A DNA stretch of 64,000 bases from Acidobacteriota bacterium (GTDB taxonomy: Bacteria > Acidobacteriota > Vicinamibacteria > Marinacidobacterales > Marinacidobacteraceae): contig JAJEIY010000046.1 in NCBI GenBank assembly GCA_022828085.1, forward strand, positions 64,556 through 128,555, in the 5' to 3' direction. The notes beneath the pieces are model-generated. The model was given only the letters and a program-made list of their open reading frames with translations. It had not been told where the DNA came from and searched no databases. Positions 22,394-25,815 of this stretch are shown here, one piece after another. The translations under genes were made by a program, and so were the position numbers. The first letter of the stretch is position 1; each line of letters begins with the position of its first letter.

Positions 22394-23491
22394 CTAGGGG
22401 CCGAAGACCCCCTCCCCCGCCCCGCCCGGCTCGGGCCGGCTGGTGCGTTGCGAGGCCAACGCCTCCCGTTCGGCGTCCGCGACGTCCGCTTCGACCCGCG
22501 CTTCGATCTCCTCCAGCACGGTGTCGGCCACCGGCGCCCCTCCGGCGCCGCCCTGCCGCAGAAACGCGCGATAGGTGCGGACCGGGTCCCGCCGGCCGTA
22601 GTGCGCGAAGAGGTCGGCCGGGAGGATCCTCCGGCTCTCGCCCTCGTCGTGGGTGGCGTGCCCTCCCATCCGGAACGTGTCCGCAACCACGAACACGGGC
22701 CGGGAATCGGCGAGGGCCTCCCGTCGGGCGAGCGCGGTGCCCGCGAACACGTCGAGCACGTTGTTGCCGTCCACCCGCAGGCCGGAGATTCCGTATGCGC
22801 CGCCGAGTTGAGCGAGCCGTTCGTCCCCGCCCTCCGCCAGCGGGGTCCCGAGCGCGATCCGGTTGTTCTGGATCACCACGACGAGCGCCGCCCGGAGCGC
22901 GACGGCGGACACCATCCCCTCATGGAACGCGGCGGTCCCCGTCGTGCCGTCTCCTGCCCAGGTTAGCGCCACCCTCGTTTCTCCCCGAAGCCGGAAAGCG
23001 AGGGCCAGCCCCGCGCACACCGGCACGAGGGAGCCGACCATGCTGATTGGGGCAACGATGCCCTGGTCCAGGTCCCCGAAGTGGAGGTCCCTGCCCCGGG
23101 CCGGCCCGTCCTCGGTACCGAGGGCCCCCCGGAACATGGAGGCGAGGCTCATCCCCCGCTCATGGCACGCGCCGATGTTGCGGATCATCGGTCCGACGAC
23201 GTCGCCCGCTTCGAGCGCGTGGCACGCCCCCACGGTCACGGCTTCCTCACCCGGCCCGAGCCACGCTTTGGACAGTACTCCCGACCGGACCCAGCGCTTG
23301 AGCTGGAGGTCGTGGAGCCGGTTCCGGACGAGGCCCTCGTAGAGCCGGAGTCTTGCGGGCTCCGCGAGCCCTCGAACAATGGGGGCGCGCCGGGCGTCCT
23401 CCAGGGCGGTCGTCCCGAATTCACGGACGAGGTCCGGATCCTCGGTCCAGTCGAGGTATTCGGGAGGATCGAGTCCGGGGACGGCCCTCAC
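22394..23491 (-). CDS. Thiamine-dependent dehydrogenase E1 alpha (pyruvate/2-oxo acid)
   Basis: VTWAGDGTTGTAAFHEGMVSAVALRAALVVVIQNNRIALGTP; GTGA overlap with upstream gene. Confidence 0.85.
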   Translation of the reverse strand: MRAVPGLDPPEYLDWTEDPDLVREFGTTALEDARRAPIVRGLAEPARLRLYEGLVRNRLHDLQLKRWVRSGVLSKAWLGPGEEAVTVGACHALEAGDVVGPMIRNIGACHERGMSLASMFRGALGTEDGPARGRDLHFGDLDQGIVAPISMVGSLVPVCAGLALAFRLRGETRVALTWAGDGTTGTAAFHEGMVSAVALRAALVVVIQNNRIALGTPLAEGGDERLAQLGGAYGISGLRVDGNNVLDVFAGTALARREALADSRPVFVVADTFRMGGHATHDEGESRRILPADLFAHYGRRDPVRTYRAFLRQGGAGGAPVADTVLEEIEARVEADVADAEREALASQRTSRPEPGGAGEGVFGP

Positions 23492-24999
23492 GCCGAGCGG
23501 GAAACGCCGTTCCAGCGGACGAGTTCGCCCGCGATCAGGTTTTCGACCGCGTCGGCGTTCCAGGAATTGCGGAGGCCGTTCGTCATGACCGAAAAACCGA
23601 GCGCCCGGTGCTCGGCCGCGAGAGGAAAAGCGACGCCCGAGAGCGAACTGACGCCGCTGAGGGTTCCCGTCTTCGCCATCACCCGTCCGAGGGTTTCTTC
23701 TCCCCACAAGCGCCGGGCAAGGGTGCCGTCCACCCCGGAAACGGCCAGCGAACAGAGAAAGTCGGTCCGGAGTTCCGGCTGGCTGTAGAGGTCGCGAACG
23801 ACCGCGACGAGGAGGCGCGCACTCAGGCGGTTCTTCCTTGAGAGTCCGGAGCCGTCGTCGATCGTGAAACTGCCGGCCGGAAACCCGAGTCCCACGAGAT
23901 ACTCCTCGATGGCCCGCACGCCCTTCTCCCGTGTTCCGGGCGGTCCCCAGCGATGGGCTCCGACGGCGAACAGGAGCTGTTCGGCGGACCAGTTGTTGCT
24001 GTACTTGCCGAGTGCCTCGACGACCTGGGTCAGGGGCGCCGACTCGTGGCGGTACAGCAGGAGCTTTTGGCGGGCGGCGGGGACGGGGCCGCGCCTCGGT
24101 TCGCCGGCCACGTGCACGCCGCGTTCGATGAGCTTCCCCTTCAGGGCGTAGCCGAAATAGAGGGCCGGCTCCGTTGCGGTGAAGCGGGCGACGCGTTCGT
24201 TGCCGCCCCTGAGGATGCGGCCCTGGAGCCGAATCCGGCGCGCGCCCCGGCGCTGCGCCAGGATGTAGGGGCGCCCCGAGTTGCGCAGCACCATGCGGTT
24301 CTGAACGGCGTAGTACCCATACCCCTCATCGCGAACGGCCGGCTGCTGGCCGTCCCCGGGCACGCCGGCGACCTCCACCCGGTTCCAGTGGTAGCCGAGG
24401 GCGCTCTGGATGGGCTCCTTGTACCGGATCCGCCGCCTCACGAGCGCCTGGTCGGTTTCCTGGACTTCCAGGAAAGAGTCGTCCAGCACGATATCGCCCC
24501 GGATCTCGGTCAGCCCGAAGGCCGCCAGGGAGTCCGCGATGAAGTCCATGTCGTGCCGCTGGAGACTGGGGTCCCCGGAGCCGATGACATGGACCGGCCC
24601 CTCGATGACCCCTTCCTCGGTGGGCGGCGCATCCACGAGCAGACGGGTGGGAAAGCGGTAGCTCGGTCCCAGATAGTGGAGACACGCGCCCGTGATCGGC
24701 AGCTTCATCCCCGAGGCCGGCACGTAGCCGCGGTCCGCGTTGTGGCTGAAGAGCGCGGCCCCGGTGGCCAGATCCTCCACGTGGATGCCGATGGCGCGAC
24801 GGAGGCCGAAACGCCTCCGAACCGCGTGGAGGCGCCGGTCGAGTTCAGCGAGCGAGTCGTCGGAGAAAGGCGCCGCCCGTTCTCCCGCGAAGGCCGGCCC
24901 CCCGGCGGCCAGCAGCGCCCCGCCGGAGAGGACGCGCAGAGCCCGGCGCCGATCCACCCGCCAGTCGGCGCCGGGATACCGGGGACGGTGACCGCTCAC
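23488..24999 (-). CDS. D-alanyl-D-alanine carboxypeptidase/endopeptidase (PBP4 family)
   Basis: PASGMKLPITG (SxxK), KYSNNWSAEQLL (SxN), MAKTGTLSGVSSLSG (KTG). Confidence 0.88.
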   Translation of the reverse strand: MSGHRPRYPGADWRVDRRRALRVLSGGALLAAGGPAFAGERAAPFSDDSLAELDRRLHAVRRRFGLRRAIGIHVEDLATGAALFSHNADRGYVPASGMKLPITGACLHYLGPSYRFPTRLLVDAPPTEEGVIEGPVHVIGSGDPSLQRHDMDFIADSLAAFGLTEIRGDIVLDDSFLEVQETDQALVRRRIRYKEPIQSALGYHWNRVEVAGVPGDGQQPAVRDEGYGYYAVQNRMVLRNSGRPYILAQRRGARRIRLQGRILRGGNERVARFTATEPALYFGYALKGKLIERGVHVAGEPRRGPVPAARQKLLLYRHESAPLTQVVEALGKYSNNWSAEQLLFAVGAHRWGPPGTREKGVRAIEEYLVGLGFPAGSFTIDDGSGLSRKNRLSARLLVAVVRDLYSQPELRTDFLCSLAVSGVDGTLARRLWGEETLGRVMAKTGTLSGVSSLSGVAFPLAAEHRALGFSVMTNGLRNSWNADAVENLIAGELVRWNGVSRSA

Positions 25000-25721
25000 G
25001 ACGCGGGATCCTGATCCGGCTGGGAGGCGGCGCCCACCTCGGCCACCGCCGCGAGGAATACCTCCTCCGCCTGGGCCCCCAGCACCGAGGTTCCCTGCCC
25101 CACGAGTCCGGCTCCGTCTTCCAGCGGTTCGACGACGGTCAGCGGCACGGAAGAAACGGCATAGGTCCGGGCCAGATCCGGGAATTCCTGGACCATCACG
25201 ATGTCGGTCGTCACCTCGGGGCTTGCCACCGCGAACTGGACGGCCAGACTGGCCGCCGGAGCGCACCAGGGTCAGGTGGGGGTCGTGAAGACCTTGACGT
25301 GGACCGGACGCCGGAGCGCCGACAATTGTTCGGCCGCGTCCTCGGAAAGGGTCAGCGGCGCTCCGGACACCCAGGTTGCCGCGGTGATCAGCGAACCGAA
25401 TTCGTGGCCGTCCGGCAACCCCAGGAAACGGACCCGCCCCTTGGCGGCGCCGTTGAGTTCGATCGCCGGCAGGCGGACAATCCCCGCGTCGCGCGCGGCA
25501 TCCGGCGCCTGGTCCACATCCCGTACCGCGACGGTAAATCGGTCCGACAGCTCTTCCACCTCCCGCAGCAGGGCTTCGGTCGTCTGACAGGTCTGGCAGG
25601 GTGTCCGGCCCGGTACCACGAGAGCGCTTTCCGGCCGCGAGTAGACAGTGGCGGAGACGGGGCCGGCGAGATCCTCGAAGTGTTTCCGGACCGCCGTGCG
25701 ATCCGCTTCGCGAAGCAGCAC
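24996..25721 (-). CDS. Protein disulfide oxidoreductase-like double thioredoxin-fold protein, candidate selenoprotein (in-frame TGA at 25272-25274)
   Basis: First half RTPCQTCQTTEALLREVEELSDRF and VRFLGLPDGHEFGSLI; second half VHVKVFTTPT-U-PWCAPAASLAVQFAVASPEVTTDIVMVQEFPDLARTYAVSSVPLTVV; both halves in the same frame. Confidence 0.7.
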
Positions 25722-25815
25722 GAGGCATAAGGATACCCCGCCCGCGACACGGCTTCGCCGGTCCCCCTCGCCGTGACGCACCGGTAGAATCGGAAACCGT
25801 TCACCAAGGCGGAGG

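Follow-up and report, generated by a model that had tools for sequence, protein, structure and literature searches.

A two-domain protein disulfide oxidoreductase gene of Acidobacteriota with a predicted selenocysteine codon in its second active site

Introduction

TIGR02187, whose current NCBIfam name is PDO_seleno_TRX, corresponds to a predicted UxxC selenoprotein family described as "homolog of AhpF N-terminal domain (Grx-like domain protein)", of which ABB15282.1 is an example (2022, PMC9312934; 2026, PMC13188914). The 2026 review graded the family as high confidence (PMC13188914). In the 2006 census, it was predicted under the AhpF name in Carboxydothermus and Symbiobacterium, and three selenoprotein families with only four selenoproteins were reported for Acidobacteria (PMC1794560). 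The literature on selenoproteins of sponge symbionts was also searched, and nothing bearing on this oxidoreductase was found there.

The gene described here lies in a 64,000-nucleotide stretch of DNA from an Acidobacteriota bacterium (contig JAJEIY010000046.1), which is referred to as the window. It shares with the predicted family the NCBIfam model, matched slightly below its curated cut-off, the two-domain build, and a predicted selenocysteine (Sec) as the first residue of UxxC. Whereas the 2006 members came from Carboxydothermus and Symbiobacterium, the present gene belongs to Acidobacteriota, in which Sec and Cys forms are mixed across the phylum. The solved protein disulfide oxidoreductase (PDO) structures 1a8l, 1j08, 2ywm, and 2ayt also consist of two thioredoxin folds with a C-terminal CxxC-type motif and are collinear with the present protein over about 170-200 residues, but they carry Cys at the position of the TGA. 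The AhpF N-terminal domain (1zyn, 1hyu) likewise has two tandem thioredoxin folds with weak sequence similarity; it is fused to a flavoprotein reductase, whereas the present oxidoreductase stands alone. This family has been known as a prediction since 2006, and the gene is a well-supported Acidobacteriota member of it. New here are a firm case from this phylum, with its predicted SECIS, and the pattern of exchange between Sec and Cys.

The oxidoreductase gene and its in-frame TGA

The features of the gene are as follows.

24996..25721, minus strand: two-domain protein disulfide oxidoreductase gene (TIGR02187), GTG start, 241 codons and a TGA stop, one internal TGA
25587..25598, minus strand: CQTC, active site of domain 1, codons 42-45
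25272..25274, minus strand: in-frame TGA, codon 150, predicted Sec, opening residue of the domain 2 motif U-P-W-C
25263..25265, minus strand: second Cys of U-P-W-C, codon 153, Cys in 80 of 80 loci

The sequence-only reading had claimed a lone in-frame TGA in a protein with two thioredoxin folds. Indeed, when the minus strand was read from the GTG at 25721 to the TGA at 24998-24996, the sole intervening stop was the TGA at 25274-25272. The GTG start was kept in nine genomes of the family. The TIGR02187 profile matched the read-through protein (residues 5-228 to model positions 2-208/209) with 180.7 bits and an E-value of 2.2e-53, a score that was computed with Cys substituted for Sec and is slightly below the curated cut-off of 185. 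Two thioredoxin-like domains were recognized, with CQTC at residues 42-45, where domain 1 had been said to retain it, and UPWC at residues 150-153, and Pfam thioredoxin or glutaredoxin matches were obtained in each half. Furthermore, the solved PDO structures 1j08 (E 3e-23), 1a8l, and 2ywm matched both halves, in agreement with the proposed PDO identity; both domains are already covered by solved homologues. In the alignment, the TGA stood where the CPYC-type motif of domain 2 (CPYC in 1j08) has its first Cys, which is the position that had been proposed. An annotation that takes this TGA as a stop would truncate the oxidoreductase at its active site.

Selenocysteine machinery and UGA usage

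The host genome (3.57 Mb in 93 contigs, 91% complete) was searched for the machinery of Sec insertion, and all four components were found: tRNA-Sec with the anticodon TCA (69.7 bits, cut-off 47), SelA (496 bits), SelB (295 bits from its GTPase part, 317 when the C-terminal piece is included), and SelD (252 bits), with the three proteins also exceeding their cut-offs. A genome-wide reassignment of UGA (code 4 or 25) was considered, and no support for it was found. The tRNA with the UCA anticodon is the tRNA-Sec that scored above the cut-off, and neighbouring conserved genes end in TGA, which excludes reassignment; its probability is practically nil. Since the oxidoreductase gene and the adjoining PBP4 gene both end in TGA, UGA is also an ordinary stop in this genome.

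No Cys paralogue of the oxidoreductase was found in the genome. The alpha subunit of formate dehydrogenase, which had the largest selenoprotein membership in the 2006 census (PMC1794560), was sought in this 91% complete assembly and not found. One in-frame TGA within the matched domain was also seen in each of two other genes of this genome, both of peroxiredoxin type: L153, on the same contig outside the window (G000:C73:47668-48057), in the context SGGWUPFC, and L155 (G000:C18:26923-27372), in the context DWTGGUTLQF. Both are likely to be further selenoproteins of this genome.

Codon 150 and the half downstream of the TGA across Acidobacteriota

A single TGA, taken alone, could be a sequencing error, or it could have arisen by nonsense mutation as the gene decayed, the true or ancestral codon being TGC or TGT. 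Orthologues were examined with a six-frame search reading through stops, which covered ten family genomes and 396 from the phylum. Nine of the ten family genomes contained an orthologue, and all nine, which were independently assembled, carried TGA. In the phylum, 88 of the 396 genomes gave matches to the oxidoreductase, and 80 loci from 79 Acidobacteriota genomes were read in detail. The codon 150 column of these loci comprised TGA (39), TGC (23), and TGT (18) and no other codon; thus, the alternation among these three codons that the sequence-only reading proposed to look for was present. SelB scored above the cut-off in each of the 38 genomes that carry a TGA form and in 15 of the 41 with a Cys form (Fisher p 1.3e-10, with kinship ignored).

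Subsequently, the changes between Sec and Cys were counted on a protein tree built with the codon 150 column masked. Nine changes were obtained by parsimony, and at least four were forced by well-supported branches. The 80 loci amount to a natural experiment that bears on when Sec is retained or abandoned, as they include Sec and Cys forms from close relatives and cover genomes that have SelB as well as genomes that lack it. L068 (G332, TGC) and L075 (G340, TGA) are sister proteins from one genus, and SelB is present in both genomes. Two Sec-form copies, L099 and L102, were found in G400. The CxxC of domain 1 was missing, with Ser, Gly, Ala, or a gap in its place, in about 12 of the 39 TGA forms (L061, L070, L082, L086, L090, L091, L095, and L098-L102; most are from a few related families) versus 2 of the 41 Cys forms (L072 and L074). 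When phage records were searched for the oxidoreductase, only distant AhpF-like matches were obtained.

The codons after the TGA were then compared within the genus. Up to codon 225, most changes were synonymous; for example, L030 showed 21 synonymous and 8 other changes. The exceptions were L029 (11 synonymous versus 13 other changes) and L025, in which the two were tied. The last 16 codons were poorly conserved. As far as codon 225, the sequence after the TGA is still evolving as a coding sequence.

These data bear on the explanation by error or decay. In its favour, one close relative, L024 (G009), carries an extra stop in addition to the Sec TGA, a CAG changed to TAG at codon 217, 25 codons before the end. 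Against it, the TGA is shared by the nine family genomes and 30 more loci of the phylum, is confined to SelB-bearing genomes, and is followed by a reading frame without frameshifts in which changes up to codon 225 are mostly synonymous. Because independent assemblies share the TGA, an error in one assembly is irrelevant, and the explanation is regarded as refuted, its probability being extremely small. As for the TAG of L024, either the protein may do without its final 25 residues, as the weak conservation of the C-terminal tail within the genus would allow, or this copy may be damaged or misassembled.

The predicted SECIS hairpin

A hairpin was found downstream of the UGA, within a run of codons that do not change in the genus.

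25239..25257, minus strand: predicted bacterial SECIS, GGCGGCCA-GUC-UGGCCGUC, loop G at UGA+23
25230..25259, minus strand: codons 155-164, ten in a row identical at the nucleotide level across eight genomes of the genus; contains the hairpin

The hairpin at 25257-25239 extends from 15 to 33 bases past the UGA and has an 8-bp stem, a loop that opens with G, and a predicted energy of -12.6 kcal/mol. The loop G, spacing, and energy lie within the model for bacterial SECIS elements given in PMC13188914. When the window sequence was recoded synonymously with GC weighting, only about 1% of the recodings yielded an equally good hairpin. The invariance of codons 155-164 in the eight genomes was seen against a background in which 66% of all codons vary, and the only comparable run in the genus was the first 16 codons. 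Most other TGA forms of the phylum had a hairpin of different sequence, with the loop G at +18 or +19 and often with the loop GGUC. In a register scan, stems at these positions were long after TGA but not after Cys codons (6.8 versus 4.3 bp), and in sequences of more than 60% GC the values were 6.9 and 4.7 bp, kinship being ignored in both comparisons. When the fold energy of 46 bases was compared with that of dinucleotide shuffles, no extra stability was observed (z -0.37); it is therefore comparison, and not stability, that argues for the hairpin. In an Rfam search of the region nothing beat chance, and the SECIS_3 match after the TGA was at the chance level.

The sequence-only reading had placed the SECIS at 25269-25249. 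This candidate was rejected: neither of the first two bases of its loop, UCCG, is a G, and its codons 153-154 vary in the genus. It re-pairs part of the 5' arm of the hairpin at 25257-25239, which is the stronger and conserved one.

A broader statement about the phylum can be framed as a single joint claim: the Sec form is common in Acidobacteriota and repeatedly swaps with the Cys form, the SECIS shifts by about 5 bases from one lineage to another while the G/GU loop is kept, and some lineages of the same class have lost the domain 1 site. We regard the chances for and against this claim, taken as a whole, as evenly balanced. If it were true, the Sec site alone would do the chemistry in the lineages without the domain 1 site.

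Probable reading of codon 150 as selenocysteine

Another explanation is that the UGA is a true stop between two separate proteins, or that it is read through at a low level with Trp or Arg. UGA does serve as an ordinary stop here, at the ends of the oxidoreductase and PBP4 genes. On the other hand, homologues show only Cys at the codon 150 column where it is not TGA, a split would run through the active site of a thioredoxin domain, and both the association with SelB and the hairpin would be left without a role. We consider this explanation highly improbable.

Taken together, the machinery in the genome, the codon alternation, the nine family genomes with TGA, and the SECIS-type hairpin support the earlier proposal of Sec recoding instead of decay. 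Codon 150 of the oxidoreductase mRNA is very probably read as Sec through SelB, tRNA-Sec, and the hairpin, giving U-P-W-C in domain 2; that Sec is actually inserted at this codon is inferred from sequence comparison.

In the mechanism we propose, SelB with tRNA-Sec would decode UGA 150 as Sec, guided by the hairpin 15-33 bases downstream, and domain 2 would thereby obtain its U-P-W-C active site. The selenol would presumably be a fast nucleophile and the main one for disulfide exchange. By analogy with PDO and the N-terminal domain of AhpF, the Sec of domain 2 may reduce disulfides or hand electrons to partner proteins. The CQTC of domain 1 may act as a relay.

Neighbouring gene and upstream region

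One neighbouring gene adjoins the oxidoreductase gene directly.

23488..24999, minus strand: Peptidase_S13 gene (D-Ala-D-Ala carboxypeptidase, PBP4 type), downstream; its start overlaps the oxidoreductase stop

The overlap of the oxidoreductase stop with the GTG start of this gene was GTGA, as had been noted for the PBP4 gene, and ATGA in one relative. A Peptidase_S13 homologue followed the oxidoreductase in all nine family genomes read. The neighbours are the PBP4-type carboxypeptidase and an amidase, neither of which points to a redox partner of the oxidoreductase.

On the upstream side, the sequence GGGGTATCCTTAnnCCCC (25722-25742), immediately before the GTG start, was nearly invariant in the genus, and the sequence further upstream diverged. 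Within the first 16 codons of the gene (25721-25674), codons 7-16 varied nowhere in the genus. A -10-like box lying so near the GTG suggests an mRNA that is leaderless or nearly so.
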